Shown here piece after piece: positions 1,670-63,951 of a stretch of DNA of 64,000 nt. Positions within the stretch are counted from its first letter, which is position 1; each line of letters begins with the position of its first letter. The translations under genes were made by a program, and so were the position numbers. The notes beneath the pieces were generated by a model. The model searched no databases. It worked only from the letters and a program-made list of their open reading frames with translations, and was not told where the DNA came from. Origin of the DNA: Cephalotus follicularis (taxonomy: Eukaryota; Streptophyta; Magnoliopsida; Oxalidales; Cephalotaceae); contig BDDD01000078.1 in the NCBI GenBank assembly GCA_001972305.1, positions 968,428 to 1,032,427 of the forward strand, given 5' to 3'.

Positions 1670-2110
1670 GCTATCATTGGCGTTGACGTGTACGCATGGC
1701 GTTGACGTTTATCCCCTTATGCGTTGACTCCTCTGGTTCTTTGCGTTAACACTTCAAGCTTTTCTTCAGCTTGACTTCTATTCATGTTGACGCACATTTA
1801 TAGCGTTGACGCTAATATCATTTGAGTTGACTCCATAATATCTTCACGTTAACGTCCAAACTCACAGTCCGAAATGTGCACAATTTACGTTGACGTCTTG
1901 ATATGGCGTTGACGTCTATAGACAAGGTGTTGACTCCATTTGTTTTCTACATTGACGTGGACGTCTTCCTAAAGGCGTTGACTAAAATCATCAGTTTTCC
2001 AGAACGTTGACTAGAATAAAGATGGCATTGACGAGAATCATCTTATAAACCCATATCAGGTACTTAAACCCAACACGTTGACGCCTATAATATAGTCGTT
2101 GATGCCAAAA
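1670..2110 (-). repeat. GCGTTGACG word array, B 3' LTR
   Basis: About 15 or more degenerate copies of GCGTTGACG(T/C) lie at mostly 19-22 bp spacing; the first three gaps are 19, 22 and 22. The words resemble the palindrome GCGTCGACGC with the central CpG changed to TG. They include TTGAC and TGACG, the cores of plant W-box and as-1 elements. The array sits directly upstream of the LTR's TATA box. Confidence 0.75.
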
Positions 2111-2249
2111 GTACTGATATGCATTTCTAAAATCTCTTACACAGCCAGGAAACTTAGTTAAACTATTCCTTCATATCAAACACACATGTCAGGTGTTTTG
2201 TTATCATGAAAACAAGGATTGTAAGGATTGTAACATATAAATGTCAACA

Positions 2250-2640
2250 ATCTCCCCCTTTTTTATGATGACAAAACATTCACAATACGAAGGTATAAAA
2301 CATATAATAAGTTAACTTGTGCAAGAAATGTCAATACAAAAATACCAATTAAATTTCTAAAGCTTTAAAAACTCCAAAAACTATGCATACATACCTTATC
2401 ACAAATGCAAACTCAAATACCAACTCCCCCTTAATATGAGGATAGCACAATTTAAATTTAAAAATAATGCATATCAAAAGATACATATCACATAAAGACT
2501 CATATAAACATTGTCCTCCTTAATAATCAATCTCTCCCTTTTTTCAACCAAAATCAATAAGCACACTCCCCCTTTTTGGAAATCATCAAAAGGGATTCAT
2601 AAAGTAAATTCTCCCCCTTAAACAACAACACAAGTGCATA
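2250..2640 (-). other. Polypurine tract and 3' noncoding stretch of B
   Basis: On the minus strand a polypurine run (AAAAAAGGGGGAGATTG) abuts the 3' LTR at 2250-2266. Further GGGGGAG-like runs occur near 2425, 2560 and 2611. Repeated purine runs between pol and the LTR are typical of SIRE-type elements and are also seen in F (23011-23315). No gene is seen here. Confidence 0.75.
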
Positions 2641-2645
2641 TGAAA

Positions 2646-6421: not shown

Positions 6422-7672
6422 TTCAAAAATAACCACCTTTTTTTTTTAAACTTAAGAAATGCAAACAAACGTTTAATCAATTTACTTTAAACAAATTTAA
6501 GCAATAAAATAACTTGCAAATAATTAAAAGATTAAGGGATAAAATGTTGTACACAAGTTTTATAGTGGTTCGGCAAACTGTGCCTAAGTCCACTCTCCCA
6601 AGACGCACTTGAGGATCCGCTAGAATGTAATCCCCCGATCACAAACAGTAACTCAAGATTTTTACAAGTTCAGTCCTAACCTCAATTTTTGCGAGCTAAA
6701 TTCTAACTCGGATATTGAAGCTAAATCCTAACTTTGAGTAAGGTACTAATGACCATCGGTATACAACAAGAATGTGAAGCATTTTTTGTTTATATGTAAC
6801 CTCTACAAAGGCTGATATAACAGTTTTAAGTATCAAAAAGAAAGACTTGAAGATAGTTCAAGAGCTCTTTGAAAAATATGAAGACTAAAATGCTTTTCTT
6901 TGTTATTTGGCTTGCTGTTTCTTGCTTGATTGTTTCTTCATGGATTAAGACTCTTTTTATAGCCTTCAAATCACTATAGCCATTGCTAGAGTTTAGGAAC
7001 TCATCAGATAGCCGTTGGAGCTATTCAAGGAAAGGATCACCATTTCAGCACCTTCAAATTTTGAAGATTTTGAGTTTAGCTGTCATTGGCGTTGACGTGT
7101 ACGCAGGGCGTTAACTTTTATCCCCTTATGTGTTGACTCCTATGGTTCTTTGTGTTAACACTTCAAGCTTTTCTTCAACTTTACTTCTATTCATGTTGAC
7201 GCACATCTATAGCATTGACGCTAATATCATTTGAGTTGACTCCATAATATCTTCACGTTAACGTCCAAACTCACTGTCCGAAATGTGCATCATTTACGTT
7301 GACATCTTGATATGGCGTTGACGTCTATAGACAAGGTGTTGACTCCATTTGTTTTCTGCATTGACGTCCAAGCCATTGACGTTGACGTCTTCCTCAGGGT
7401 GTTGACTAAAATCATCAGTTTTGAGAATGTTGACGAGAATAGAGATGGCGTTGACGGGAATCATCTTGTAAACACAGATCAGGTACTTAAACCCAGCATG
7501 TTGATGCCTATAACATAGTCGTTGACACCAAAAGTAGTAATAAGCATTTCTAGGCTTTCTTACATAGCAAGTAAACTTAGTTAAACTATTCCTTCACATT
7601 AAACGCACATGTCAGATGTTTTGTTATCATCAAAACAAGGATTGTAAGGATTGTAACATATAAATGTCAACA
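6422..7672 (-). repeat. 5' LTR of copia B
   Basis: This repeat of about 1251 bp pairs with 1022-2249. Its outer end is TGTTGACA on the minus strand at 7672. A TATA box (TATAAAAA, minus) is at 6954-6961, and the word array upstream of it covers 7085-7530. Element A's RNase H resumes at 7673. Confidence 0.85.
7085..7530 (-). repeat. GCGTTGACG word array, B 5' LTR
   Basis: This is the counterpart of the array at 1670-2110: GTTGACG-type words about every 20 bp upstream of the TATA box. Individual words differ between the two LTRs, mostly by C/T or G/A changes at the central CpG. Confidence 0.72.
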
Positions 7673-9433
7673 ATTGTCACAGTAGAGCACTACAAGACAA
7701 CTAATGATCGAAACCACTCCAAGTTTTGCTATGAACTTACGCATCCAAACACCCTCCTTTGCAGTATCTGAGGCTGCTATATACTCTGCTTCCGTATTGG
7801 AATCTGCCATAGTCTCCGATTTTGAGCTTCTCCAACTCACAGCATCGCCATTCAGGATATAGACATATCCCGATACTGATTTGTGATCATCCAGATCACT
7901 ATTAAAGTGGAGTAAGTGTATCCCTCCAATTTCAACTCATTATTTCCACCATAGATCAAGAAAGCATCCTGAGTCACTCTAAGGTACTTAAGGATCCCCT
8001 TGACTACTTCCCAGTTTTTCATTCTGAGATTGGACTGGAATCAACTTTCCATACCTAAGGCATGTGCGACATCAGGCCTACTATATAGCATGACTTACAT
8101 GATCGATCCTACAACCGAAGCATAAGGCATCCGACTCATGAGTGTCGTTTCCTCAGAAGTATACGGGGACATCTTCTTGGGAAGTTGAATTCCATGTCCT
8201 ATTGGAACTAAGCCCCGTGTGGAATTTTCCATACTAAACTGTTTCAGTACTTTGCTGATGTACTGGCTTTGGGAAAGCCCAAGTAACCTACGAGATCTAT
8301 CCCTGTAGATCTTTATATCCAGTATGTAGGAGGCATCTCCCAAATCCTTCATGGAGTAGTTCTTGCCAAGCCATACTTTTACGGATTGCAACATCCCTAC
8401 ATCATTCCCGTTGAGTAGGATGCCATCCACGTATAGTACTAAGAAAGTGATACAGGAGTCATCCTTGCTCTGTTAGACACAAGACTCGTCTACGTTTCTA
8501 ATGAAGCCAAAAGACTTGATAGCCTTATCAAAACATATGTTCCAGCTCCTAGATGCTTGCTTTAGGCCACAAATCGACCTTTGAAGCCTGGACACCATGT
8601 GCAACGATTCAGTGGATGTAAACCCCTCAGGTTGAGACATATAATTGTCCTCTTCAAGATGTCCATTCAAGAACGCAGTCTTGACATCTGTTTGCCATAT
8701 CTCATAACCATAATGAGCGGCAATAGCAAGCAAAATCTGAATGGATTTGAGCATCGCAACAGGTGAGAAAGTTTTTCTATAATCGACACCATGTCGTTGT
8801 CTATACCCTTTCACCACGAATCACGCTTTGTATGTCTCAATCCTTCCATCTGCGCCAATCTTCTTCTTGAAGATCCCTTTGCAACCAATAGGCACTATGC
8901 CCTCGGGAGCTTCGACCAAGTTCAAAACTTGGTTGGCATACAAGGAATCTGTCTCGGATTTCATCGCATCTAACGAGGCTTTGAATTCAGTGCTCTGCAC
9001 TGCTTCTTGATAGTTGGCAGGCTCATCATCCTTGATGATGTTGGGTTCATCAGTGACTTCGACAAGAAAACCATATCTCTTGGGTACTGTTGAAACTCTG
9101 CCTGATCTCCTCAATATATGAGTGCCTGAATGAGATCCAATCTCATGTTGGGATTTTACTACGGTTATGCCTTTAGAGGTACCAACCTCTAATTCCTTTC
9201 AGTTCTGTGGTGTTTCTCCCGATGGAAACTCCTTGAGTTCCACTTTGCTTCTACTGCTTCCTGCGCGTAGGAATTCCTTCTCCAAGAAATCTGCAGTACA
9301 CGAAACAAAAACCTTTTTTTCACTGGGATGGTAGAAATAATATCCCATTGTTACCTTGGGATACCCCACAAACCGGCACTGATCCGATCACGCCTCTAGC
9401 TTACTAGGATCCAACCTTCTAACTTAAGCTGGA
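7673..9433 (-). pseudogene. Copia A pol region (RNase H, RT, integrase end)
   Basis: Minus-strand copia pol. RNase H is at about 7673-8090. Reverse transcriptase is at about 8095-9114, with [37 protein letters not shown] and an [12 protein letters not shown] region. The integrase tail lies near 9300-9433 and is shared with element J at 59590-59720. It is the same lineage as C and J and has several breaks. Confidence 0.85.
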
Positions 9434-10251: not shown

Positions 10252-10429
10252 TCTAACACCCGGAATTTTCTTTATTGTAATGTTTCGTTTAAGATGTAAT
10301 CTTATGCTTGAATTAGTGAAAATTTTTGAGATTTCGGCCTCAAAGATGTTTCCAAACCCTAAATATTGTTTTGGGGAAGAAAGGTGTATGTTAACCAAAA
10401 ACAGTGCGATTTTGGGACAATCGCGTCTA

Positions 10430-10540
10430 TGTCTTTGGAAAGACGTCGACGCCTATGGGAACCCAGATGCACGTGAATGCATGGACATGCACGTCGATGT
10501 AGGGTGAAGACATCGACGTCTAAGGAAAGACGTCGACGTC
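10430..10540 (+). repeat. GACGTCGACGTC word cluster in E 5' LTR
   Basis: Words such as GACGTCGACGCC, CACGTCGATGTA, GACATCGACGTC and GACGTCGACGTC are spaced about 20 bp apart at the end of the cluster. Similar words recur at 11285-11370 and 11590-11730. The 3' LTR has them at 18235-18390, 19140-19225 and 19440-19570. The words are self-complementary around GTCGAC, with C/T and G/A variants at CpG positions. Confidence 0.75.
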
Positions 10541-11052
10541 TTTGAAAGGAATATCAGTCACATTATGAACTGACAGGATAACGTGCAAGGGAGGGTATCC
10601 AAGACCTCTGGCAGGTGTTTTGAGGCACGAGAAGGGGGACGTGTTGAACATTCACAATGACCTCCTGACCTGCAAGGATGAAGAGAGAATACTTGGGATT
10701 ACATGCAAGGACTTAGCAGCCAAACGGGGACACCTGGTGCGCCATGCAACCAGGTGTGAGGGAGGTGTAGAAGGTGAGAATCTTGCCTTAATGCAGATGG
10801 AAACAAAAACCCCACTCTACATAAAACTCCCTTCCCTCCCTAGAAATGAGAGAGCTAAAGAAGAGAAACGGAAACACTGTGAGAAAAGTGACAGAACAGA
10901 GAAAGAGATAGAGAAGATAGAACCACCATTGTTGAGCACTTGGAGCTTAGACCGTGGAACTCCTGGGATTGAAACCTGGGCGAGTTGGGGCAACTGTGAG
11001 CAACCCTTGGAACGCAAAGAGGTGGACTTTCTAGTTCCTAACTTGGAACAAC

Positions 11053-11061: not shown

Positions 11062-12137
11062 GAAAGTGATGATTCTTATACATGCATTTTGAGTTTTAAA
11101 GATAATGAATGCCATTGGTGAATTGCATGTTAATGGATGAATTGTAGTCTCTAGACTTGTTGTGATGACCACCGTGATGTACGGAGTGAACATGCATGTG
11201 CAAATTACATGAATATTTGAACTGGTTTATGTAATGGATGATTTGGGTAATGACCTGGTGTGTTAAAAATATGGAAATGACGTTCTGGACTGAATAGACG
11301 TCGACGTCTACCTAAAGACATTGATGTCTTCACGTGTGAATGAAAAGACATCGATGTTTGAGTGAAAACATCAACGCCTTTTCTGGGTATTCATAGAACA
11401 GTAGTGTTTACTACAGATGGTGAATTGGCCATTTGTGGTTACGTGTGTATTTACGGATGGATGTTCTTGTTACATATCCTGATAACCAGTAGCATGTCTT
11501 ACACCTTGAGAGGGTGAGTTTTGCTTATACGAGGGTTATGGGCCAGATTCTTCCCCCTAGAATCAAGATTCGTGAACTGATACCTTCTGGAATCATAAAG
11601 ACATCGACGTCTTTGGAAACGCATCGATGTCTTTAACCCCAAAATGCCTGGGAATAACTGCACGAAATATTGGCGACTTAAGGTAAAGACATCGACGTCC
11701 TGGGAATAAGCATCGACGCCTATCCCCCTGTTTGAAGAAATTTTGCTCGAATGGGACCCGTTAGACCCGAAATGACTCTAGAAATGATCCTAGATGCATT
11801 CTGAGCATATGACTGCATTATTACTAAACTGTGAATTGCATTAAGGTTGATTTCTAAAAGTGTTAACCATTTTGAAAAGCTTGTATGATTATTATAATCA
11901 TTATTGTACGAAAATGTATATTTGTCAATATATGAATATATATATTTTAAAAATGAGTGGGGAAAGTATTTTCCAAAGACGGAGAAATATTTTAAAGGAT
12001 TGGTTACACAATTCAAAATGTATTGTTTTAAGATTTATAACTTATCACAACCTGAGAACGGAGTAATATATTTTAAACAAATATATTTGATAAAGTAATT
12101 ACATTTTATTGCTTGACTTGTACTGTGCAATGTTTGT

Positions 12138-13029: not shown

Positions 13030-14650
13030 AATGGAATGAAGGAGAACACGTACTAGGGCTAGAGCTATTGGAGCCAATGCCCCTGAGGAAGCGAATATGC
13101 CGCAAGGAGTGAATATCCCTCAAGATGATAGGGACCCGATCACCTGGATTGCAGATTACTTCCAACAACAGATGGCCTTTAATATGGCTAATGCAGAGGA
13201 GATGCGCCAGTACTACACACAAGCTTGACCGTAACGTAAAGCTCTCGATCACTACCCGGGAGAGGATAGTAATCAGTTTGGAAGGGACATTGAAAGGTTT
13301 ATGAGACAGAATCCACCCAATTTCCGGGGAGAACTTGATGCTACTGTGGTTGAAAGATAGCAGCAGGACTTGGAGAAAATCTTCGAAGTAATGGACTGCA
13401 CTGATACTCAAAAACTGAAGTTTGCTGTATACCGTCTATGGGGCGAGGCCACTCATTGGTGGGAGATGTTGAAGGCAAAATGGGAATCTCAGAGGCTTGA
13501 CATTACATGGGAAAGATTCCAGACAGAATTCTTGGACACATATGTTCCATGGATTGAACGGGAGCGCCGGGAGATGGAGCTCTTATAGTTACGACAGGGA
13601 GAAATGACAGTGACCAAATATCAATCAAAGTTCATGGAGCTAGCCAGGCATTCACCTTATCTGGTAGCCAATGAAGTGAAGAAGATACGGAGATTTTTGA
13701 GGGGTCTGCGACCGGATCTTTGGTCAAGGATCAGAGCTATGGAGTTGCGAACTTTTGTAGAGGTTGCTCAGAAAGCGAGATTGCCGGAGAGCATATCCAA
13801 CGAGGACCGAGCATAGAGGGCCCAAGCATAAAAAAATAAACGGAGCCCGACGAGACCATGTTCTTCAAAATGGCAAGGCGGTGGTTCTCCGACGAAATCA
13901 TCGAAGAATAGATCTGGGCAAACTGCCACACAGGGTACTCCTAGTCAGGGGGGTAATGCGGGAACTGGAGCATGTTATCGCTGTGGTCGTAAGGGCCACT
14001 TACAGAAGGATTGCTGGAGGATGAACGGACTGCGTTTGAGGTGTGGGGCATCTGGCCATTCCGTGAGAGATTGCCCGAAGAGTCAGGCTACAACACCTAC
14101 TGGACCAGCTATGTAGCGCCCCCGATCCGAGTCCACTTTATGCTCAAAGCGAGCTCCGAAGATCGGTGTGTTACGTGGGTGTAACCTTTGACCGTCAAAT
14201 CGTTTAACCATTTAACGATCCATTTCACCCATGTGCATAATTCCCTCAATTCAGCTGATGCCACCTGCCCTTTCTTATCAAAAAAACATAAGTCTTCCAT
14301 CCCTTGCTTGCCACGTGTCCTACAATTCATTTAATTCCTCCGAAACGGGGTAAAAAGTTAGAATTATGCACTTAACACAGGGCAAAGCGTCGACTCTTTA
14401 TCTCTAAGCGCGACGGTCACAGCCTTTACCTGCGTTTTTCACCAAGCGTAGGGTCATACTACGGTCCCTTGAAATATTTTCCAACTACACAATAGCAATC
14501 ATTTTCCACAATTAATATCCTTACTAGAAATCCGGGTCATCACAAGCTAGTAGCAGCGGGGCCATCACAGCAAAGGGACACAGGCAAAGGCATTGCGAAA
14601 GGTAGAGTTTTTACCCTTTCATAGACAGAGGTTCCAGAATCTACCTCGGT
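13030..14650 (+). pseudogene. Gypsy E gag region (interrupted by a solo LTR)
   Basis: This gag follows an acceptor-like TTCTTATAG|GAAC at 13024. Retrotransposon-gag matrix/capsid motifs are visible: FAVYRLWGEATHWWEMLKA near 13430 and FMELARHSPYLVANEVKKI near 13640. Two zinc-knuckle regions follow near 13970-14090. The 433 bp solo LTR at 14112-14544 sits between the knuckles and protease. Gag would form the virus-like particle. The region is a fossil with several breaks. Confidence 0.8.
14112..14544 (-). mobile_element. Solo LTR (433 bp, I-related) inside E
   Basis: The insertion runs TGTAGCGCCCCCGATCCGAG to GGTCATCACA, flanked by perfect AGCTA duplications at 14107-14111 and 14545-14549. Its plus-strand left end resembles the left end of the I LTR (TGTAACGCCCCCGAATCCGAG at 53668), and its right half resembles the I LTR around 48440-48490. 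This is therefore a small relative of the I family in minus orientation. It contains its own short word cluster (AAGCGTCGACTC, AAGCGCGACGG) near 14385-14460. A single LTR with a clean duplication is the classic product of LTR-LTR recombination. Confidence 0.85.
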
Positions 14651-18050: not shown

Positions 18051-18065
18051 TGAGGGAGGGGTGGA
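18051..18065 (+). other. Polypurine tract of E
   Basis: TGAGGGAGGGGTGGA immediately precedes the 3' LTR start at 18066. It primes plus-strand synthesis. H has a very similar tract ahead of 43151. Confidence 0.85.
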
Positions 18066-20389
18066 TGTAACACCCGGTATTTTCTTTATTATAATGTTTC
18101 GTCTAAGATGTAATCTTATGCTTGAATTAATGAAAATCTTTGAGATTTCGGCCTCAAATATGTTTCCAAACCCTAAATATTGTTTTGGGGAAGAAAGGTG
18201 TATGTTAACCAAAAACGGCACGGTTTTGGGACAATCACGTCGATGTCTTTGGAAAGACGTTGATGCCTATGGGAACCCAGCTGCATGTGAATGCATGGAC
18301 ATGCATGTCGATATAGGGTGAAGACATCGACACCCTCTTATGAAAAAGGAAAAGACATCGACGTCTAAGGAAAGACGTCGACGTCTTTGAAAAGAATATC
18401 AGTCACATTATGAACTGATAGGATAACGTGCAAGGGAGGGTATCCAAGACCTCTAACAGGCGCTTTGAGGCACAAGAAGGGGGAAATGTTGAACATGCAC
18501 AATGACCTCCTGACCTGCAAGGATGAAGAGAGAATACTTGTGATTACATGCAAGGACTTAGCAGCCAAAGGGGGACACCTGGTGCGCCATGCAACCAGGT
18601 GTGAGGGAGGTGTAGAAGGTGAGAATATTGCCTTAATGCAGATGGAAACAAAAACCCCACTCTGCATAAAACTCCCTTCCCTCCCTGGAAACGAGAGAGC
18701 TGAAGAAGAGAAATGGAAACATTGTGAGGAAAGTGACATAACAGAGAAAGAGAGAGAGAAGATAGAACCACCATTGTTGAGCAATTGGAGCTTGGACCTT
18801 GGAACTCCTGGGATTGCAACCTGGGTGAGTTGGAGATACTGTGAGCAACCCTTGGAACACAAAGAGGTGGACTTTCCAGTTCCTAACTTGGAACAACAAG
18901 GTAGGGGAAAGTGATGATTCTTATACATGCATCTTGAGTTTTAAAGATAATGAATGCCATTGGTGAATTGCATGTTAATGGATGAATTGTAGTCTCTGGA
19001 CTTGTTGTGATGACCACTGTGATGTACAGAGTGAACATCCATGTGCAAATTACATGAATATTTGAACTGGTTTATGTAATGGATGATTTGGGTAATGACC
19101 TGGTATGTTAAAACTATGGAAATGACGTTCTGGACTGAATAGACGTCGACGTCTACCTAAAGACGTCGACGACTTCGCGTGTGAATGAAAAGACATCGAT
19201 GTTTGAGTTAAAACATCGACGCCTTTTCTGGGTATTCATAGAACAATAGTGTTTACTGCAGATGGTGAATTGGCCATTTGTGGTTACGTGTTTATTTATG
19301 AATTGATGTTCTGGTTACATATCCTGATAACCAGTAGCATGTCTTACGCCTTGAGAGGGTGAGTTTTGCTTATACAAGGGTTAGGGGCCGGATTCTTCCC
19401 CCTAGAATCAATATTCGCGAACTGATACCTTCTGGAATCATAAAGACATCGACGTCTTTGGAAACGCATCGATGTCTTTGACCCAAAAATGCTTGGGAAT
19501 AACTGCACGAAATGTTCGCGCCTTAAGGTAAAAACGTCGCCGCCCTGGGAATAAGCATCGACGTCTATCCCCCTGTTTGAAGAAATTTCGCTCGAATGGG
19601 ACCCGTTAGACCCGAAACGACTCTAGAAACGATCCTAGATGCATTCTGAGCATATGATTTCATTATTACTGAACTATGAATTGCATTATGGTTGACTTCT
19701 AAAAGTGTTAACCATTTTGAAAAGCTTGTATGATTATTATAATCATTATTGTACGACAATGTATATTTGTCAATATATGAATATATATTTTTTCAAAATG
19801 ACTGGGGAAAGTATTTTCCAAAGACGGAGAAATGTTTTAAAGGATTGGTTACACAATTCAAAATGTATTGTTTTAAGATTTATAACTTATCACAACCTGA
19901 GAACGGAGTAATATATTTTAAACAAATATATTTGATCAAGTAATTACATTTTATTGCTTGACTTGTACTCTGCAATGTTTGTGCTTGTTGATTATTAGCC
20001 GCTGTGCTAATAACCTATTGATTGTTTGGCCGTTGTGCTAAGCAACCTGTGCGGAGGACTTACTCCAAACCGTTCGCAAACAAGGATGGGTTAAGAGTGC
20101 ATGACGTTGGGGCCAGGAGGTGGCGACGGTCATGACGACTTATTTGTCTGGTTCCTTTTGGGACATGCTTGCTGCTTGTGTTGATGTAGCCTTACGAGGT
20201 TATACCTGTACTGTGAACATGCATATACTTTATACATGTATACACTGCGATATATATATACTGTACTACATCATAATGCATTCATTCATGATACTCATTA
20301 TCATATACCTCAAACTGCATTTATGAGTTTATTCACTTAGCCGAGTGAGGACAAAGGCTAACCCCCTACTGTAACAGATTGATGGAGTG

Positions 20390-20394
20390 GATAT
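20390..20394. repeat. Target-site duplication of F, left copy
   Basis: GATAT directly precedes F's TGTTGAGTC end and recurs at 24530-24534. The uninterrupted site can be seen in E's 5' LTR near 12555. Confidence 0.88.
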
Positions 20395-21040
20395 TGTTGA
20401 GTCTCAATCATGGGGAGATTCATGGGGAGATTGTTGAGTCTCAATCATATGTTTTAATGATTACAAATTTGCATTTAACTTTGTTGCTTGATGTGCAAGA
20501 TATTACAAAGTTCCATAAAAGGCAAAACTAATCTGCAGGAAAAAGACATTGATCTTCCAGTAATGACATCGACATCCGTACAGAAAGACATCGACTCCTT
20601 TCAAGAAGACATCGATGTCTTCAGTGCCAGATGCTACTGATCAAATGTTTTAGAGAAGACATCGATCCATACAAGCAAAAACATCGATGTCCGTACAAAA
20701 GAAGTCGATCCCGGAACCCAAAATCAAGTGTAAGGTGTTTGTTTGATTTGCACCCGGAACCCAAAATCAAGTGTAAGGTGGTTTCTTTGATTTGCACCCG
20801 TAAGCCGAAAATCAAAGGTTGCTAGTGGTAGCTAGTGGAATCTCAAGGGGTTCTTGAGAAAGTGGACGTAGGCACAGATTTTCTGAACCACTATAAATTT
20901 GTTTGCACACTCCTATCCCTTATCTCCTTACTATTGCATTGATTGTTTTCTCGTGTGCTTGTTCATAGTTTAATTTGTTAATTCCGCAAACAAATTAAAT
21001 TGTACTTTAAGGTTGCCATATACATAGTTTTTATATTTCA
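20395..21040 (+). repeat. 5' LTR of F
   Basis: It runs TGTTGAGTCTCAATCATGGG to TTATATTTCA. It contains a short array of GACATCGATGTC-like words (20543-20710) and copies of a 43 bp tandem repeat (about 20715-20815), both shared with the right LTR. Confidence 0.88.
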
Positions 21041-21042
21041 AT

Positions 21043-21055
21043 TGGTATCAGAGCG
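21043..21055 (+). other. Primer-binding site of F
   Basis: TGGTATCAGAGCG lies two bases after the 5' LTR and is complementary to the initiator-Met tRNA 3' end. Confidence 0.88.
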
Positions 21056-21095
21056 GTTATCTTATTATTCTTAATTGTTAGAGATATAAAGATCC

Positions 21096-23315: not shown

Positions 23316-23461
23316 TGTTGAGTCTCAATCATGGGGAGATTCATGGGGAGATTTTTGAGTCTCATCATATGTTTTAATGATTACAAATTTGCATTTAACT
23401 TTGTTGCTTGATGTGAAAGATATTACAAAGTTCCACAAAAGGCAAAACTAATCTACAGGAA

Positions 23462-23890: not shown

Positions 23891-23982
23891 ATACCAGCAG
23901 AGACCAAAAACAAGGATGCATCAACATATTATTATATCCAATATGCCCAAGACTTTTGCAAAGGCTATAATCTGAATGAGGC

Positions 23983-24529: not shown

Positions 24530-24534
24530 GATAT
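24530..24534. repeat. Target-site duplication of F, right copy
   Basis: GATAT matches 20390-20394. E's 3' LTR resumes directly after it. Confidence 0.88.
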
Positions 24535-43150: not shown

Positions 43151-43293
43151 TGTAACGCCCGGGGTTTTCGTTAAGGTGTAATGTTGCATTTCTAATGTAA
43201 TTTTACGCATTGAGTTAATGAGAATTGTGTTTTTCCCCTTTGGTGTGTTGGAAGTTGCAAGAAAAAGTGTGTTAGTGTGTTTTTGTATAGGGG

Positions 43294-43440
43294 GCAGCCG
43301 ACTGCCACAGGGAGGCAGCCGACTGGACTCCCCTGGTGAAGGCGGCAGCCAGCTGCTGTGAGGAAGCAGCCGGCTGGTGGGGGTGTCAGCAGAAACAGTC
43401 GACTGCCAAGTCATGGCAGCCGACTACCAGGCGCCAGACA
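43294..43440 (+). repeat. GGCAGCCGACTGCC array, upstream block
   Basis: Six words of GGCAGCCGACTGCC type (one exact CAGTCGACTG palindrome) lie just upstream of the TATA-like box near 43528. Confidence 0.8.
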
Positions 43441-43960
43441 GCCCACGTGCTGACAGCCTTAAAGTGATAAAAGTGGGAGTTTTGGCATTTGGGGCAGATG
43501 ACAGAGAGAGGGGGCCGGGTTTTCTCCATAAAAACACAAGCTTCCCTTCTCAAATCTCCATCTTTCTTAGTGGATTCAAGAGTGTTTGGGAGTAGAGAAA
43601 ATGGAGTGAATGTGTGTGTGTTGTGGACATACGGAGCTTCATGTTGAACCGTGGACTTGGAGGCCGGACCAGTGGAGGAACCGGACTAGTGGAGGCTGCT
43701 GGACGAATTTGGGAGTGCAAGGACCTCGGATCCGGGACTTAAAGAGGTGGATTGCAACTCCTAACTTTGAGTTCTAAGGTAGGGGAAAGCTATATTTGTG
43801 ATTCAAAGTCATTTATAATGATGTTCATGAGTGAAATGCATGTGTTATATTGTGATAAAAGCATGAATGTGTATTGTGGTGATAGTGCTTTGTGGTTGGG
43901 TTGGGTTAAAGTGGATTGAACGTGTGTGATTTCTGCTGTTTTTGGGCACTGACCGTAGGG

Positions 43961-44490
43961 GCAGTCAACTGTCCAGGGAGAACAGCCGACTGTCCGAGGC
44001 CAACAGTCGACTATTCGTGAGGAACAGCCGACTACCCATGGAAAACAGCCGACTGTGCATTGGAGCCAGTCGATTGTTCGTGCCTGGTGTTGCAGGTTGC
44101 TTCCTGTTGATTGTGTAGCCGGCTGCCAGAGGAAGGCAGCCGACTGTGGGTGGTACAGCCGACTGTTTTGGGTGACAGCCGACTGCCCACGTGTCACTCT
44201 ACCCGGGCTTGCTGAGGTGGCATGCTGGGACAAGTGGTGACAAAGGAAATGTGTATTGTGCATGGACCAGCCGACTGCCTGGGAAGGGCAGTCGACTGCT
44301 AAGTGAGGGACAGCCGACTGCCAAGTGGGAGACCACCGACTGTTGGTTGAGGGCAGCCGACTGTTGGTAAGGGACAGCCGACTGCCAAGGAGGGCAGTCG
44401 ACTGTTGGTTAAGGGCAGCCGACTGCCAAGTGGGAGACAGCCGACTGTTGAAGGAGAACAACTAAGTGTCAGTGAGAGACAGCCGACTGT
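43961..44490 (+). repeat. CAGCCGACTG array, downstream block
   Basis: About 20 copies of CAGCCGACTG or CAGTCGACTG occur, mostly 20-23 bp apart, with 21 the commonest gap I counted (sampled gaps 23, 20, 21, 20, 21, 22, 21, 21, 21). It contains many GCCGAC cores, the plant DRE/CRT word. The block lies downstream of the putative splice donor. The long minus-strand frame across it is a by-product of the repeat. Confidence 0.85.
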
Positions 44491-46177
44491 TTGGGACTGT
44501 TTTGTATGGTGAGCATATGTGTGCATCTTGTACCGTGATAAACTGTATTTCGAATTGGTTATTGATGATTGTGAAACGTTTTACCCCTTTTGGAGGTGCA
44601 AACATGATTTCTATAAATCATTACTTTATGTGAAATGTACGTTTTGAGATATATATATTTTCTCGAAAGATTGCGAAAATGGCTTCCACAACCTTGTGAA
44701 AATGAGTTTGGTTAATTGAATGGTTTATTAAAATCATTTGTTGTTTCGAAAAGTATGTTTTCCAAAAGGATTACGAAAATGACTTTCAAGTGATTGCGAA
44801 ACTGTTATACGAAATACGTATTTTTGAGGTATTTGAATGTAGTTCAAATAACCGGGTTTTACGGAAAGTGTATGATTCCAAGTACTTTGATACTTGAGTT
44901 TTCGGGAAAAGTATTGTTATATATATTTTGACAAATATATATGTTGCAAGTATTTATATCTATAAATTACTTGAAATATTTGAAGGAAAACGTATTGTTG
45001 CAAGTATTTTATGAAGCATAATTTACTTGGGAAATGGAGTGTTATATATATATTTTGACAAATATATATATGTTGTAAGTATTTATACTTTAAACGTTTT
45101 GAAAATGAACTGCAATGTTTTGAACGAGATGTTTTGATCAAGTATTTATTTTATAAACTACTTGAGTGGTTTTGTGTGTGCTGTGATTGCACTGTTATCG
45201 TGATTGTGTTGAGTGTTGGTACTTAGCTGCCGTGCTAGTATCGTTTACCGTGTATTGATTGTTGTTACTTAGCTGTCGGGCTAGTAACGTGGATGTTATT
45301 GTATTGATTGTGATTGAGTGTTGCCGCTAGCGGGGTAATGTTGGTACTTAGCCGCCGTGCTAGTATCTTGAGTGTTGCCGTTAGCGGGGAAGTGTTGGTA
45401 CTTGCCGCCGTGCTTGTATCGTAGTGTGTTCTGAGTGTTATTACTCGCCGTCGTGCCAGTGACAGGAACAATTGTTTGCATTGAGTGTATTGATTGTCTG
45501 CTATAACATGCCTGCTTGAGTATAGTGTTGTCCCGTGGGACGTGACTGATCGTTATTGTGGAGTGATGGGTCCTTAAAGACCTGAGACATAGTTGACTAC
45601 CTTTCCTGTCGTGATATTGTGAACCGTGTAGTGTGTTGATGTGCTCCGGTGGAATCGTGGGCTGTGACCTTGTGGTCGTGGCATATGTATATATGTTTAT
45701 AGATACGAATCGAGATATAGTATGTACCGCATCATTGTGCATTCATGTCATGACATGTTTTATCGTTGACCCTGGATCGCTTTTATGGCTTTGTCGAGTG
45801 AGGACAAAGGCTAACCCCCTACAACTTCAGTGTGTTTCAGGTTGATGCAGCCGTTGGTTACCGTTGGGCTCCGAGGAGCAAAGTGAAGTTTTATGTTGTT
45901 TAGTTTTGAGGAATGTTATTGGATCTTTGTAATAAATGAATGATTGTAATAATGAATATTGTTCACGCTCCGTTTGTGGGCAGTTAACTGTGATGATGTT
46001 TACTGTTGTAGCATGTAGTATGGAATGCATGTTGCGTTGTGATTCGGCTTATATTATATGCTTCCGCGAGAAGTTAATGGATATGGAAAGTTTTAATTTT
46101 ATGGTAAATTGCATAAGCCGGATTTATATGTTGATTTCCACCACTTATGTATGTTGTTATGGGAACGGGGTGTGACA

Positions 46178-46336: not shown

Positions 46337-46341
46337 ATCGG
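46337..46341. repeat. Target-site duplication of G, right copy
   Basis: ATCGG matches 33245-33249. Confidence 0.88.
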
Positions 46342-47689
46342 TGCGTTACAAGGGGGTGAAACCTTTAATCCTTTAACAATCTTACTAATTGCTAATATTT
46401 ATCCAATTTCTTGCAACTTGTCATTCAAATATTATACTCTCATTGAAATCATCATAAACCATAACAGTCATAGTCAATGTCTTACATCTACACAGGATCT
46501 ATCATAAGGCACTACACAACGGAAAATATTAACTTACTACATCAACAGCAGTTTATATAAAACATTAATGTATAATGTAATTGCTTTCCATATATGCTTT
46601 CCGAGCTTCCTTTAAAGTTCGAATTCCATGTCAATCATCTCCTGAAAATTTTATTTGAAAACAAAACATTGCAAGGAATGAGCTTTAAACAGCCCAGTAA
46701 GAATCATAGTTATACAAATGTTATCAAAATTCCTTTTTGGTAATTATTGTCAAAACGTTCTTAATCATACATTTTTCTGGCATATAACATAGCCATACTT
46801 GAAAATAAAACATCATTAAAATCCTTTTCTGGTATAAAACCAAAACGTTTCACATTCATTTCTTATTTAAAATCACATTCATTCTTTTCTGTTCATATCT
46901 CATGAAACAGAACATTTCATTTCTTTTTCTGACCATATCTCATGAATAAGAACATTTCATAAAAAACTGAGGGGTTGTATACACTTAAATAACCCAATTG
47001 AACCAGTAATCGGAGCATTGTGCACTTCCCCGATCACCAATTTACATCACATGCATGTCCGTGAGCACTCTCCGCACATAACATTAATCCTTGTCTAGAT
47101 TAATCCTCCCTGGATCGCAATCCAATAATTTTTCATCTCAGTTCATTTCATTTTCACCTTTCATAAATCATTTTCTTAAATACTTTGAGTGATCAGCTAA
47201 AAGCATTTATAAAATAAATTCGTACAACATTTGAAAAACTGAGTTTACATATAGCAACGTAAAATAGTAAAATCATAAAATCATAACTTTCATAACGAAA
47301 CATAAACAACGTAAAATAGTAAAATTAGCTCAATAACTTCAAATGATAAAATCATAATATAAAAATTGGCAAAATTTTGGAATACATAAAGCATGATAAA
47401 AAATTAAAGTATTAACATTAAGATAAATATCTCAATGAATTTAGAAAGCTAAAACTCGTAAATAAAGTTAACGTAAATATTTTAACGAATTCGTAAATTT
47501 TAACTGGTAAATAAAACAATAACAAAATATCAGAAAATACAACATTTAGTAATTTAGAAAATAAATGGAATAAAATACTTTGGCAAAAGTAAGATTTTTC
47601 CTTACATTACTTTAATCTCCTTCTCTTATTTTCTACACTGAAGTAATTTCAGCAGAACTTTTCCTCTCTTTTCTCCTATTTCTCTACTT

Positions 47690-47755
47690 ATTTCTCTCTT
47701 TCTCTTCTCTTTCTCTCCTATTTCTCTCTTTCTCTCCTCTTTCTCTCGCAGACTT
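47690..47755 (-). repeat. CT/GA-rich microsatellite in I LTR leader
   Basis: Repeated TCTCTTTCTC units (GA-rich on the element's sense strand) lie just downstream of the TATA-like box. The same tract occurs at 55080-55155 in the middle LTR. Confidence 0.8.
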
Positions 47756-48044
47756 TAGGACTCTCCTTCTCTCTTCCCTTAGAAAAATTCTATCAGAACT
47801 CACTACTGCTTCTATGTTTACTTTACCTGTTTACTTACCCCGTATTTAAAGGAAGTAAACAGCCGCCTTAGATTTGTCGTTTTCTGCTTAAAATATTCAT
47901 CACCGTTTGTGTGTCGACACATGGCGTCTTTTTACTTAAGGCAGCTAAAATTTTTACCACTTTCCACCTGTTGCTCGCCACGCATCCATTTTTAATATCT
48001 TTAATTTTCTAAATGACAAAACAACCGGCATTTTCGAGGAATAT

Positions 48045-48280
48045 TCCTTAAGCGTCGGAGGTTAACCGCTAAGCGTCACCACTTTAGCCTTAAAGCGCTG
48101 CCGCTTAGACCACGAAGCGTCGCCGGTTAAATGCATTAACAAAGAAAATAGGATTTAAGCGTTGATAAAAAACGTTAAAAGCGTCGGCAAATCAACTCAA
48201 AAATTTCGTGCCACGAATTTGTCGAAATTACGGCATTTCTTCGCATAACGAAGTCAAACTGTCGACGCTTTAAATAAGGG
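48045..48280 (-). repeat. AAGCGTCGxCGCTT array, I 3' LTR
   Basis: Words include AAGCGTCGGAGG, AAGCGTCACCAC, AAGCGCTGCCGCTT and AAGCGTCGCCGG, with gaps of 21, 22 and 22 bp. Its counterpart in the middle LTR is at 55450-55700. It lies upstream of the TATA-like box on the minus strand. Confidence 0.75.
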
Positions 48281-48582
48281 TTTTCACGCTTTATGGCACA
48301 AAACGCACAACTACCGTGCACACATTACAATCCCCAAAACAACCATATAACAATGAATTCAACAAAATTTTCAATCCAAAACAAATAACCAAATTCAATT
48401 TTTTTCCGGGAGCGGAACCCCCGAACCCCCCGACCGTCAGGGTCATATTACGGGCCCCATAAAAAATTTTCCATCCTTAAAAATGGAAATCATATTTCCA
48501 TATAACTTTAACAAAATTTTCCAGTCATTACATTTTACCCTCCTTATAAAAATTTTGTCCTGAAAATTTGTTACACATTAGA

Positions 48583-53667: not shown

Positions 53668-55938
53668 TGTAACGCCCCCGAATCCGAGTTCACTTTAAGT
53701 TCAAAGCTAATCTCGAAGAATCGGTGCGTTACGTGGGGGTGAAACCTTTAATCCTTTAACAATCTTACTAATTGCTAATATTTATCCAATTTCTTGCAAC
53801 TTGTCATTAATATATTATACTCTCATTGAAATCATCATAAACCATAACAATCATAGCCAATGTCTTACATCTACACAGGATCTATCGTAAGGCATTACAC
53901 AGCGAAAAATATTAACTTATTACATCAACAGTAGTTTATATAAAACATTAATGTATAATGTAATTGCTTTCCATATATGCTTTCTGAGCTTCCTTTAAAG
54001 TTCGAATTCCACGTCAATCATCTCCTGAAAATTTTATTTGAGAAACAAAACATTGCAAGGAATGAGCTTTAAACAACCCAGTAAGAATCATAGTTATAAA
54101 AACGTTATCAAAATTTCTTTTTCATAATTTTTGTCAAAACATTCTTAATCATACATTTTTCTGGCATATAACATAGCCATACTTGAAAATAAAACATCGT
54201 TAAAATCCTTTTCTGGTATAAAACCAACACGTTTCACATTCATTTCTTATTTAATATCACATTCATTCTTTTCTGCTCATATCTCATGAAACAAAACATT
54301 TCATTTCTTTTTCTGACCATATCTCATGAATAAGAACATTTCATAAATAACTGAGGGGTTGTATAAACTTAAATAACCCAATTGAACCAGTCATCGGAGC
54401 ATTGTGCACTTCCCCGATCACCAACTTACATCACATGCATGTCCGTGAGCACCCTCCGCTCATAACATTAATCCTTGTCTAGATTAATCCTCCCTGGATC
54501 GCACTCCAATAATTGTTCATCTCAGCTCATTTCATTTTCACATTTCATAAATCATTTTCTTAAATATTTTGAGTGATCATCTAAAAGCATTCATAAAATA
54601 AATTCGTACAACATTTGTAAAACTGAGTTTACATATAGAAACGTAAAACAGTAAAATGATAAAATCATAACTTTCATAACGAAATATAAACAACGTAAAA
54701 TAGTAAAATTAGCTCAACGTCAAATGATAAAATCATAACTTCCGTAATTGTAGAATATAATCATGTAAAAATTGGCAGAATTTCGGAATACATAAAGCAT
54801 GATAAAAAATTAAAGTGTTAACATTAAGGTAAATATCTCAATGAATTTAGAAAGCTAAAACTCGTAAATAAAGTTAACGTAAATATTTCAACGAATTCGT
54901 AAATTTTAACTGGTAAATAAAACTATAACAAAATATCAGAAAATACAACATTTAATAATTTATAAAATAAATGCAATAAAATACTTTGACGAAAGTAAGA
55001 TTTTTCCTTACATTGATTTAATATCCTTCTCTTCTTTTCTAGACTGAAGTAATTTCAGCAGAACTTTTCCTCTCTTTTCTCCTCTTTCTCTAGTTCCTTC
55101 TCTCTTTCTCTTCTCTTTCTCTCCTCTTTCTCTCTTTCTCTCCTCTTTCTCTCGCAAACTCTCAGACTCTCCTTCTCTCTGCTCTTAGAAAAATTCTATC
55201 AGAACTTACTACTGCTTCGATGTTTACTTTACCCGTTTACTTACCCCGTATTTGTAGCAAGTAAACAACCGCCTTAGATTTGTCATTTTCTGCTTAAAAT
55301 ATTCATCACCGTCCGTGTGTCGACACGTAGCGTCTTTTTACTGAAGGCGGCTAAAATTTTTACCGCCTTCCACCCGTTGCTCGCCATGTGTCCGTTTTTA
55401 ATATTTTTAATGCTCTAAACGACAAAACAGCCGGCATTTTCGAGGAATATTCCTTAAGCGTCGGAGGTTAAGCGCTAACCGTCGCCACTTTAGCCTTATA
55501 GCGCTGCCGCTTAGACCACAAAGCATCGCCGATTAAACGTATTAACAAAGAAAATGGGCTTTAAGCTTTGATATAAAACGTTAAAAGCGTTGGCGCATCA
55601 ACTCAAAAATTTGGTTCCACGAATTTGTCGAAATTGCGGCATTTCTTCGCATAACGAAGCCAAACTATCGACGCTTTAAATAAGGCTGTCGACGCTTTAT
55701 GGCACACAATGCACAACTACCATGCACACATTACAAGCCCCAGAACAACCATATAACAATGAATTCAACAAAATTTCAAGTCCAAAACAAATAGCCAAAT
55801 TCAATTTTCTTCCGGGAACGGAACCCCCGAACCTCCCGAGCGTTAGGGTCATATTACGGGCCCCATAAAATATATTCCAACCTTAACAATGGCAGTCATA
55901 TTTCTGCATAACTTTAACAAAATTTTCCAGTAATTACA
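53668..55938 (-). repeat. Middle LTR shared by gypsy I and K
   Basis: This 2271 bp LTR starts TGTAATTACTGG at 55938 and ends GGGGGCGTTACA at 53668 on the minus strand. It is I's 5' LTR and also lies where K's 3' LTR should be, because K's pol end and polypurine tract abut its other side (55939). It contains the word array at 55450-55700. Confidence 0.88.
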
Positions 55939-60333: not shown

Positions 60334-60404
60334 GTCTCGGATATCTAAAATATCATCCTTAACGAATTGTGTAAGCCTAGCATCAGTAAATGTCCAAGTC
60401 TACC

Positions 60405-61787
60405 TTACCAAGTATAGGTTTTATTCAACTCAGTTTCTCTATGTCTTTTCTTTTTACTTTGCCTAATGGATAAGATTTTAGAATGTTCATTATTCAAGAC
60501 AAATAATCCATTGTCGATAAAACCATTACCAACACAAACACTGTTAGAATATACAAAAATTTGAATGCATGGGAATATGAGCTTTAAGCTCAAATTACAT
60601 AAGTATGATACAGTTACTATATTTCTTACAATGCTCGGTACAAAATAGCATGGATCAAGAGTTAATACAAAACCATTACAAAAAGTAATGTAAAAAATCC
60701 CGAAAGCTTCAGCAATGATCCTGTTTCCATCCCCAAGCCATAGATCCAAGTCTCCAGCTCCAAGCTGTGTAACTTTTCTTAACCTCTGTAATGAATTGCA
60801 AAGATTAGTTCCACATCTATTATCCAATACCTATGTAGAACTGTTATTCAAAGTTAGATTCAGTTCAATCATGAACACACCTGATGAACTCGCACCATGC
60901 GGTGTATCAATATAGACTGTAGCACAAGTAATCCGACAATCCATCTTCGAGTGTCCAGACTTTCCACATTGAAAGCAGGCACACTCAGGCGTGAACTGCT
61001 TCATTCAATTCTTTGCAATACTCCCCGTAGCTCCAAGCTTGCCCTTCTTCTTCTTGTTCTTCTTCTTACCCTTGCCTTTTATGTTGACAAGCCTAGGTCT
61101 GCCTTTCCCTTTAGAGGAAGACGAGGCATTGCCCTTTCCTTGGGCAGCCCTAGAAGAAGGAAGAAGTAAGGCGGGGGACTTTGACTTCCCATAGTCAAAA
61201 TCTGCCTCTACCATCCTCAACATAGATATTCACTCAGTAAGAGTCTTTTCTATCTTGTTCATGTGAAAATTCACCAAGAACTGCGATAATGACTTAGGAA
61301 GGGACGTAAGAATTAGATCTACATAATGATCATGGTCCATGACAAACCCTAACTAAGCTAGTTGCTCAATCATGTCTATCATCTTCAAACCATTATCATG
61401 GACTGAATCTCCCTCTGGCATCTACGCTTTGAAGAGCCTGCACGAGAGATTGAACCTCTGAGTCCTAGACTCAGCCCCATACATCTCTTGAAGACAGAGT
61501 AGTATAGCGGATAAGATCTCTATCTTCTCAAGATGGCATTGTAGCTCTGGTTTCATCCCTAGAAGGGCTAGACACCGAGCTTGCTCGTCGTCCTCCAGCC
61601 ACTTGGCCAGACGGTCTGACTCCTCAGGGGTAGGGTCATCACATAGTGATGGAGGCCCCCCAGTCATCACATATGCCATTTTATTGGCCGTTAGGATGAT
61701 TTTGAGGTTACGATGCCAATCAGGAAAATTGGGGCCCTCTAATTTGTTGGTTTCCATAATACGGGAAATAGCATATTGAAAAGCCAT
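60405..61787 (-). pseudogene. Copia J gag and protease
   Basis: Gag starts at 61787 (MAFQYAISRIMETNKLEGPN). A lysine-rich segment (GKGKKKNKKKKGKLG) near 61050 precedes a zinc-knuckle region, CFQCGKSGHSKMDC, near 60950-60985. Protease follows, with MDNRCGTNLCNS near 60810 and the flap-like WLGDGNRI. An acceptor-like TTCCTTATCTAG lies just upstream of the start on the minus strand. It is a fossil with several breaks. Confidence 0.82.
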
Positions 61788-63951
61788 TTTCTAGGAATCT
61801 AGATAAGGAAACAAAAAGTAGAGTCAGCATTTATTCCAATTTTAATATATGACAACCATAACACTTGGTCTTTAGTACTTACGGTTCCTCCCACTATTCT
61901 AATCGTATTCCATACCCCCATATGGAAATAGAAAATTCCACCTTCCTAGTGGGGATTGGAATTCATCACAATCATATTATGGCCACATGTGCACTTGTCC
62001 AACCATAATATATCCAATTGGTAGGCTATCTTGCCAATTTACATTCAATGCAAGATCCAATCATAAAAGTCAGCCTCTCGATTCAATATGGCCTTAGCTT
62101 TGGTATAACAAACCATTAGAATCAAGATAAGTCAAACACCCACAAGCTACATCGGAATGCACTAGTTTTAACACTCACATGTACACGTGTCCAAGTGCTA
62201 AAACATTGCCACCCTCTGCAGTGTCTAACACCAACGTCGACATAGCATTCCATAGGCTACTAGCCTCAGCTTTGGCAGAACAAACCAATAACCAATGTAC
62301 GCCACTCAACGAACACTGTAGAAGGCCACGAGGAACCACTCCATGGGTCCCAATGTTAATAGTTATTATTGAGTTGAGGGAATTTGAAGTCTCACATTTT
62401 AATTACCAAGCCTTTAATTAATTCATTGGTTTCATTACCCAATTCCAATTAATTACAACTTTGCATGCATGACGTGTATTTGGGCTATCCATCTTATGCA
62501 CCTTGGATTTATTTCTGAAATAAATCAAATTGAATGGCTAAGGACCTCACTATAAGTAATGACTTGAGCCTAAAGTCATTACTTGGTCTTCCTAGGTGCA
62601 ATGATTAAATATATCCATTACATATAGCACCATGCATCCATGGTCTTCAATGGTCTTGTACTTCTCTTCTCCATCCTTCCCTGCAAGGTCTTCTTTACAA
62701 ATGCAACTTACATTATAAATGATATTACATATAAATTATTAAAGAAGAGAATACATATTAAAGATGAGAAGAGATCATATTCTAAAGAGGATTCAGAAGA
62801 GAAAACTAAGATGGTGCACGTAGGCACCTTATTACAGACCATTAATGAATAACAGATAAATCATCCACAAAAGAAAACCAAACTAGGGCTTGTCCGTATA
62901 GGCCATCCATCGTGCATAAGAGAAGCAAAGTATATATCTAATATAACTTTAAAACACTACACAAATGCCTCCCACAATAACCAATTACAAAATTTAATAT
63001 CAGAGGTTGTTTATGGGTTTAACTCCCACTAAATCAAACAATGATCAATTATCCTCTAAGTGCCTTAGGCCAAAAATTCCAAACTTTTAGAAATCGTGTC
63101 TTTCTCTATCTAAGCGTCAACTGTTTGTCTAAAGTGTCGCCGGTTACACATTAAGCGTCGACAGCTCATTTCAAACCATCAGCGCTTCGTGCAACCTCTC
63201 GCGCTTTAAGGTAACCGCCGAAGCTGTAGCGCTTAAGTGTTGACAGTTTACATAAAACCGTCAGCGTTCCATGCTTCCACCAGCGCTTAACCTTTGAGCT
63301 TAGGCTAACTGTTGATGCTTTAATCAAAAGCGTTGGCTGTGAGGCTGCTGTAGGATGGCACTATGACAAAAAATTGCAGCTTTCCCAATGTTTGTACTTA
63401 GGCATTCAAAAATTATGCACTTTGCAAAACTTTGGCAATCCTCATATTGCACTATGCAGGTTCTAAACCAAATGGACTACGCAATTCACACATTCTTCAA
63501 CCATTGCCCATAAACTAGAAACCAAACGCATATCAAAGGATTACATGCAAGAGTATCATGAAGCAAGACAATGTTGCATTAATGCTCCCACTGTCTCAAG
63601 CCACAAGACACTGCCCTGCACATATTAAGTGCAGAAAAATCTGCACAATCCAAGTTATGCAGAAACAATTTCATATGTCTATGAACCTAGTCAAACGAAC
63701 TCCAAATTGCATTGCATCTTTTGGGAACAACTTGTAATGCAATCCTATACATGTTAAAATTAACATCCAATGCCAATTCAAATAGGACAGCAATGCAAAT
63801 CAGTTTTGAATTAAATCCAATTTGACTCAAAACCGTTACAAACACACCAAGGCACTATAGGATGAGTTTCACCACAAAACACAAACGTCTAATTAAACTT
63901 CTAATTAGTCATCATCCTAGGCATATTAATTCAATTAAGATTGATGTAGTT
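61788..63951 (-). other. Leader of copia J with word array
   Basis: A noncoding leader of about 2.2 kb, aligned in part with C's leader. A word array at 63105-63335 (AAGCGTCAACTG, AGTGTCGCCGG, AGCGTCGACAGC, ACCATCAGCGCTT) has gaps of 21, 21, 21, 20 and 19 bp. No gene is seen. Confidence 0.72.

Follow-up and report, generated by a model that had tools for sequence, protein, structure and literature searches.

We have analyzed a 64-kb stretch of the Cephalotus follicularis genome (contig BDDD01000078.1, positions 968,428 to 1,032,427; from here on the window), which consists of long terminal repeat (LTR) retrotransposons nested in one another, several of them carrying rows of short palindromic words that recur about every 21 bp. 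The elements were mapped by self-comparison, Pfam and inspection of the junctions. Among the copia elements, B lies on the minus strand with LTRs at 1026–2251 (3′) and 6425–7674 (5′) that are 89% identical, and F, a short element in which only gag was found (20395–24529, plus strand, LTRs at 20395–21040 and 23316–24529 for the 5′ and 3′ ends), sits in the 3′ LTR of element E, flanked by GATAT on both sides; B and F are Sirevirus-like. C and J, also copia and on the minus strand, are relatives of each other (identity of their integrase pieces about 66%). The gypsy elements are E (plus strand, LTRs at 10251–about 12919 and at 18065–20394, the latter resuming at 24530–24890 after F), G (plus, LTR at 33200–35791), I (minus, 3′ LTR at 46337–48532, edges set by inspection) and K (minus), a second copy of I with 92% identity. 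H (plus, 3′ LTR at 43150–46177) is gypsy-like: its gag region can be aligned to that of E and its own Pfam gag match is below the cut-off. Gypsy gag/pol domains were found by Pfam in E, G, I and K, and these four are probably chromoviruses, because all have the SH3_Tf2-1 domain and I and K show Chromo matches (E 0.016 and 0.0011, both under the Pfam cut-off; none was reported in G). By LTR starts and lengths, their lineage is tentatively Tekay/Del.

The array of B comprises 17 words with the symmetrised consensus TTNGCGTTAACGCNAA at 1678–2108 of the 3′ LTR (minus strand; the usual core on the LTR strand is GTCAAC), with a copy at 7085–7530 in the 5′ LTR, also on the minus strand. In the 5′ LTR of E (plus strand) the word AAGACRTCGAYGTCTT forms a proximal array at 10420–10545 and distal arrays at 11285–11725 (LTR offsets 1052–1464), and copies of these words are found at 18351–19460 in the 3′ LTR. 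F carries 13 words AAGACATCGATGTCTT at 23482–23890 of its 3′ LTR (plus strand) and only the first array part, 20543–20712, in the 5′ LTR, which lacks about 566 bp of the 3′ LTR including the second array half and the TATA box. A 43-bp tandem repeat is also present in both F LTRs, at 20710–20815 (2.4 copies, 5′) and 24175–24304 (3.0 copies, 3′). The LTR of G has a proximal and a distal array on the plus strand (33395–33565 and 34495–34648) with the word AAGCGTCGACGCTT, which had been proposed before as an ideal word and has no exact occurrence in the window. In the 3′ LTR of H (plus strand) the word CAGYCGACTG makes a proximal array at 43291–43430 and a distal one at 43958–44492, the latter with 20 words and one run at exact 21-bp spacing. 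I has seven words near AAGCGTCGACGCTT at 48049–48293 (minus strand, 3′ LTR), and K the same array at 55450–55700 (minus). The arrays of C (29572–29788, nine words AASCRTCGAYGSTT) and J (63111–63343, ten words AASCGTCGACGSTT), both on the minus strand, are probably located in the 5′ leader. Long minus-strand open reading frames (ORFs) run over arrays at 43790–44461 and 18365–18940, the second without a Pfam match; 21 bases equal seven codons and such spacing may keep frames open, therefore these ORFs are probably not genes.

The clustered words number 17 in B, 13 in E (under a tighter 70-bp cluster rule), 13 in F, 12 in G, 26 in H, 9 in C, 10 in J and 7 in I. Family counts here and below exclude L and a solo LTR, and K, which entered the fixed-word counts and the comparison with I, is otherwise treated as a copy of I. 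The original prediction had located the arrays of B, E, F, C, G, H, I/K and J correctly. Its claim that every LTR family has them holds for B, E, F, G, H and I/K; in C and J they are probably in the leader, in L they are irregular and in the solo LTR (14385–14460) there is a single core match. L (24891–26480) has loose TCGA cores with gaps of 22, 53, 29, 52, 31 and 3 bp, and profile fitting finds no regular array in it, although it is enriched for the B word (7 against a shuffle mean of 0.77, maximum 4). Downstream of its words L has a TATA box, and with its CTATAAATAG box the stretch looks like an LTR promoter; two further words stand near 25780 and 25803, separated by about 23 bp.

These words are far more abundant than expected by chance. 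TCGA-centred near-palindromes of 14 bp, counting both LTR copies for some elements, occurred 28 times against a shuffle mean of 3.13 (standard deviation 1.62, maximum 8 in 60 shuffles). Among the 14 centres listed, TATA (18, mean 7.2, maximum 14) and ATAT (16, mean 7.9, maximum 16) were also raised, less than TCGA. When fixed words were counted (observed against the mean of 100 shuffles each), the E word was found 10 times against 0.10 in the E LTR, 10 against 0.03 in that of F and 4 against 0.03 in that of B; the G word 8 against 0.04 in the G LTR, 5 against 0.03 in the C leader, 4 against 0.11 in I, 5 against 0.18 in K and 2 against 0.02 in J; the H word 22 against 0.63 in the H LTR; and the B word 11 against 0.46, 9 against 1.18 and 6 against 0.52 in the LTRs of B, E and F. 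In the internal regions all fixed-word counts stayed in the shuffle range, the top one being the B word in internal E (6, shuffle maximum 7). Under a looser core rule, the density of words was 1.0–6.7 per kb for the control regions and 0.19 per kb for the internal DNA (31.8 kb). A palindromic profile fitted to each region recovered 17 words in B, 17 in E, 13 in F, 13 in G, 28 in H, 10 in I, 9 in C and 10 in J, and mean numbers of 0.5–5.8 when refitted on 100 shuffles per region. Summed score and gaps of 19–23 bp were above the shuffle maxima of the region itself in all eight; the number of words alone was not in E (17, maximum 20), G (13, maximum 13) and I (10, maximum 13). Mean word identity within families was 0.58–0.75.

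The spacing is likewise far from random. Out of 98 adjacent gaps in 12 clusters of eight families, 68 measured 19–23 bp, whereas random placement of the same number of words over the same span gave a mean of 16.4 and never more than 31 in 5000 trials; as had been predicted, words and spacing both lie well beyond chance. Without H the count was 49 vs 12.0, in copia alone 33 vs 8.2 and in gypsy without H 16 vs 3.7 (3000 trials each). By family, gaps of 19–23 bp made up 11 of 16 in B, 6 of 13 in E, 8 of 12 in F, 6 of 10 in G, 19 of 24 in H, 4 of 6 in I, 6 of 8 in C and 8 of 9 in J, isolated profile matches being dropped from this count (1 of 17 in E, 1 of 13 in G, 2 of 28 in H and 3 of 10 in I). 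With the refitted profile there were 68 such gaps in the real regions vs 0.3 for the summed shuffle means. Nine internal regions searched with four seeds gave only five of them in 36 runs, at most two per run, and the arrays are thus absent from internal gag/pol DNA, as anticipated. An autocorrelation peak near 21 bp had also been expected: the motif-free symmetry autocorrelation of the pooled arrays does peak at 21 and 42 bp, mainly from H, but the top lies at lag 7 for copia alone and at lag 17 for E, G and I alone. The remaining gaps cluster at 28–32 bp (six), 41–42 bp (six) and 49–51 bp (five). Those of 24–70 bp (n = 23) lean to whole helical turns at a pitch of 10.45 bp (P = 0.0014), and the same test over 24–110 bp (n = 29) gave P = 0.0097. 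The idea that 21 bp represents two turns of DNA fits the spacing and draws limited further support from these longer gaps, which suggests helical phasing of the words.

LTR arrays with a clear TATA box precede it and occupy the early portion of their LTR. The B words occupy offsets 151–567 of 1226, with the TATA box at 699, 132 bp past the last word, and those of F offsets 176–567 of 1215, with the box at 668, 101 bp past the last word. In I they are at offsets 248–476 of 2196 and a TATA-like TTTAAATA follows 207 bp past the last one. A TGTGTCGACACA-type palindrome is found near the I/K promoter, around 47915 and 55321, separate from the array. In E, G and H there is a proximal cluster at about 150–360 and distal clusters between 817 and 1464, the E words extending to offset 1464 of 2669. 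For C and J no paired LTR was found in the window. The C words are 99–299 bp past a match with one mismatch to a primer-binding site (PBS) at 29878–29889 and the J words 619–835 bp past another, at 63953–63964; since the words follow the PBS matches, both arrays are likely to be in the 5′ leader before gag and not in an LTR.

The words do not respect the limits between superfamilies. We ran the profile of one element over the others (hits vs the mean of 30 shuffles each): the G profile gave 10 vs 0.1 on the C leader and 9 vs 0.0 on J, the C profile 11 vs 1.0 on the G LTR, the E profile 13 vs 0.4 on F and the F profile 12 vs 0.7 on E. The profiles fall into a group of E and F and another of G, I, C and J, with H nearly alone and B nearest to E and F. 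As E is gypsy and F copia, and G and I are gypsy and C and J copia, the groups span the superfamilies and the class of word crosses their border, while relatives inside one superfamily (E, G and H; B and F) differ in words. BLAST showed E, G and H to be alike at their LTR ends, and B and F in parts of their LTRs, and the array DNA had no cross-superfamily alignment of at least 35 bp at E 1e-3. This makes transfer of whole arrays by recombination unlikely, and the concern that they were inherited by simple homology is not borne out; convergence on the same sites would be the simplest account of the sharing.

Most of the arrays are also rich in CpG. The observed/expected (o/e) ratio was 1.20–2.10 in 10 of the 12 array stretches, compared with 0.63 for the window; 18 of 24 flanks were below 0.7 and both flanks of I above 1.2. 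Changes between copies were summed over the LTR pairs of B, E and F and the I/K pair, I and K being separate copies, so that the figures reflect more than post-insertion change. CpG sites differed by transition at 25 of 162 positions in the words and 55 of 250 elsewhere in the LTR, non-CpG sites at 11 of 439 and 139 of 4702, and spacer sites at 4 of 28 and 13 of 455. By these figures, CpGs in the words change several-fold faster than other sites and, nominally, somewhat slower than CpGs elsewhere. As they mutate readily between copies, the CpG richness is not accounted for by dead copies being protected. Selection in active copies, or else recent renewal, is the most likely source of the many CpGs in the words, and that arrays are CpG-rich despite such ready mutation hints at selection.

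The reading that we favor, with modest confidence, is that the arrays are helically phased sites for homodimeric DNA-binding proteins of the host, acting as enhancers in U3 or the leader. Each array would be a transcription-control module made of a row of host-protein sites, one dimer sitting on each palindrome, and the separation of about two DNA turns would put the dimers on one face of the helix, where they could bind cooperatively. Such a module, lying early in the LTR (ahead of the TATA box where this is clear) or, for C and J, probably in the leader between PBS and gag, would boost the transcription of its element, or protect it, wherever the host factor is present. Lineages that share a host would have picked up words for one set of factors or for relatives of these, or adjusted their words to them, and for that reason the class of word would not follow the tree of the elements. 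A common binding factor, one of the explanations offered at the outset, is still the best reading. A more specific version, that one single family of host proteins reads CGTCGACG-type palindromes two turns apart and that Sireviruses, the C/J copia elements and chromovirus-like gypsy elements converged on it, switching arms as the factor or the silencing changes, is tentative and we regard it as rather doubtful.

Several observations weigh against sites for host dimers. All the evidence comes from one 64-kb window. With a free period the best fits were 11.8 (gaps of 24–70 bp) and 12.6 (24–110 bp). No clear TATA box was found in the LTRs of E, G and H, and the H arrays are CpG-poor (o/e 0.42 and 0.55). 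The word groups leak, with 11 vs 0.9 hits of the B profile on E, 9 vs 0.6 of G on E, 9 vs 0.8 of C on E and 8 vs 1.4 of J on H. When 200 permuted palindromic seeds were run per region, those yielding at least three gaps of 19–23 bp went from 3 (C and J) to 99 (H); the best permuted seed led back to the word of the family, or to one close to it, in B, F, G, H, C and J; for E and I it was another palindrome, with one gap more than the family's own word (7 vs 6 and 5 vs 4), which makes the exact word of these two less certain. The words of B and H are oriented, imperfect palindromes. On the LTR strand the centre of the B word is CA in 14 of 17 and TG in none, and the H LTR has GCCGAC 16 times and GTCGGC never, so that decay of CpG, which had been suggested as the origin of the variants, is not the whole story. 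GCCGAC in H resembles a drought-response core, and TTGAC in B a W-box core, but sites of these two types would be oriented and leave the palindromes unexplained, and no factor could be named.

Tandem duplication has also contributed to the arrays. The likeness between spacers was above the null in E (0.53 vs 0.30), F (0.49 vs 0.34), G (0.41 vs 0.27) and H (0.43 vs 0.31), and tandem repeats of period 20–22 were called in E, F and H, which shows duplication in these four families and gives some room to neutral minisatellites, i.e., old slippage of a 21-bp unit without function. We find this improbable: in B (0.39 vs 0.35), I (0.33 vs 0.34), C (0.39 vs 0.34) and J (0.31 vs 0.34), with 4–11 spacers each, the spacers are near the null while the words are alike, two superfamilies have the same words, and the arrays are rich in CpG in a window that is poor in it. 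Duplication alone cannot by itself keep a 21-bp spacing where the spacers are random, and a shared way of making repeats, another early suggestion, explains little on its own in B, I, C and J. Folding speaks for hairpin transcripts that feed small RNAs, the arrays being silencing triggers or by-products, as proposed for the maize Sirevirus palindromes: nine of the 12 array stretches fold at z below −2 (to −5.3) vs 3 of 24 flanks, which also counts against our own preference, and in maize the palindrome-rich LTR regions are small RNA hotspots (PMC5311732, PMC10760457). Folding is however weak in I (−0.9), G2 (−0.9) and B (−1.6), some excess is expected of any palindromic word and the 21-bp spacing is not required, and we judge hairpins unlikely. 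Pairing of two genomic RNAs through the self-complementary words, as dimerisation or packaging signals, would suit the arrays of C and J if they are in leader RNA; it does not need helical spacing, and the LTR arrays, upstream of the TATA box where this is clear, would reach RNA only via the 3′ LTR, so we give it very little credit.

Slightly better placed than hairpins, and still unlikely, are proteins encoded by the elements themselves, the arrays being their anti-silencing targets in the manner of VANC and the VANDAL elements. The words are family-specific, homogeneous within families, oriented and in non-coding DNA, and VANC targets consist of tandem repeats that quickly become different from one related element to another, while VANC6 also acts on an unrelated element that has its motif (PMC5735166); for active sunflower Tekay elements, an extra ORF like a double-stranded-RNA-binding protein is reported (PMC12844716). 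Yet a factor of the element's own is less easily reconciled with one word being used by both gypsy and copia, the string 'palindrom' is absent from the main text of PMC5735166, and in 26 ORF pieces (20 out of 35 with a length of 130 aa or more, and six others) the only DNA-binding domains passing the Pfam cut-off were those of gag/pol, an absence weakened by the decay of the copies and obtained with no direct VANC search. One B piece, which aligns with the gag of F, had coiled-coil matches below the cut-off, including part of bZIP_1. The leader position that is probable for C and J would agree with insulator or boundary modules like the Su(Hw) row in the leader of Drosophila gypsy; the other six families carry their arrays in the LTR, and we consider this as improbable as the minisatellites.

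The rest of the window adds some further features. The stretches 1–859 and 31107–32002 are 84% identical and share a plus-strand frame (78% over 77 aa), without a Pfam match in the two pieces scanned. A minus-strand copia remnant related to J, with a piece of RVT_2, is found at 7675–9403, and its 5′ part was not seen before the start of E. Searches of viral contigs by tblastn with the RNase H of E and the integrase pieces of J and B retrieved no relatives. For arrays of AAGCGTCG we considered subterminal repeats of CACTA transposons; the CACTA-end pattern gave 9 matches vs 8.9 expected and the candidate was dropped.

If one family of host proteins did read the arrays of all these lineages, the more doubtful version above, the arrays would amount to an address code shared by plant retrotransposons, serving to turn them on or letting the host find them. 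If words and spacing are the same in unrelated lineages of a genome, the factor should be a host protein that could be fished with few probes. Besides word classes and a spacing rule, the window offers unrelated elements to be used as controls of each other, which makes the enhancer, anti-silencing and small RNA readings testable together.

Contrary to the original prediction, a described element does cover such arrays. The RM boxes of Sireviruses are palindromic, present in many copies per LTR, clustered in its upper half, in CpG islands and upstream of the TATA box (PMC2829016); they were proposed to be regulatory, a common binding factor could not be named in 2010, and they are reported absent from classic Ty1/copia elements. 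The arrays described here match them in copy number and symmetry and, in part of the families, also in place, CpG richness and position relative to the TATA box. In both cases the arms vary by family, and the Vitis CGGTCGACCG and Tnd-1 ACAATCGATTGT boxes are TCGA-centred like most of our words (PMC2829016). The requirement for RM boxes is at least eight copies of the palindromic motif per element (PMC2829016), a number reached by B, E, F, G, H, C and J, with I (7) falling short. They differ in that RM boxes have a CGG-CCG core, except in Tnd-1 (PMC2829016), which is absent from the consensus words of all eight regions, where the core is CGTCGACG-like or AGYCGACT, and in that our arrays are found also in gypsy elements and probably in a leader. 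B and F are tied to Sireviruses by their polypurine tracts: AGGGGGAG occurs nine times in the window (1.0 expected), four at 2252–2618 in B (minus strand, the terminal one at the LTR edge) and five at 23013–23313 in F (plus strand, the last adjoining the 3′ LTR). GGGGGAGATTGTTG is at the LTR edge of both, and F also has the CA/ATTGG junction, while the PBS junction of B was not seen. With Sirevirus tracts in both and this junction in F, their arrays are Sirevirus arrays with a different core. Those of E, G, H and I/K belong to gypsy elements and, to judge by anatomy, resemble RM boxes and cannot be classed as such. In C and J, whose 3′ ends are both unidentified, no AGGGGGAG was seen; their integrases are 33–35% identical to that of B, when the mean gag/pol identity among Sireviruses is 34.1% (PMC2829016), and the junction of C, CA/ATTTG, is one base off the Sirevirus CA/ATTGG.

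Other known systems are more distant. The insulator of Drosophila gypsy, likewise an LTR retrotransposon, places a row of Su(Hw) protein sites in the leader; these are animal zinc-finger sites, and we know of no common use of Su(Hw)-like sites by unrelated plant elements. The maize Sirevirus LTR palindromes CACCGGACNNNGTCCGGTG (Bousios 2016, as cited in PMC10760457 and PMC5311732) also form arrays in the LTR control region, and there too one palindrome is found in two types of element, copia and Helitron; what sets them apart is the loop within the inverted repeat. A structure peak was generally lacking from the Ty3/RLG elements of maize, whereas Ty3/gypsy elements carry arrays here. The VANC targets of VANDAL elements are likewise short motifs in tandem in non-coding DNA that vary between related elements (PMC5735166 and PMC10398659), with the difference that VANDALs are DNA transposons encoding the binding protein and that their motifs, YAGTATTAY and AGTTGTCC/AGTTGTAC, are unlike our words. 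The parts of PMC2829016 consulted show neither a survey of Ty3/gypsy nor a spacing rule, 'palindrom' is absent from the main text of PMC3485330 on Retrosat2, and titles and abstract openings among the matches listed had nothing on such arrays in Ty3/gypsy LTRs or on 21-bp spacing of LTR palindromes. As far as the searched literature shows, what is new with respect to RM boxes is the presence of the arrays in gypsy elements and probably in a leader, their spacing, and words that are common to both superfamilies.

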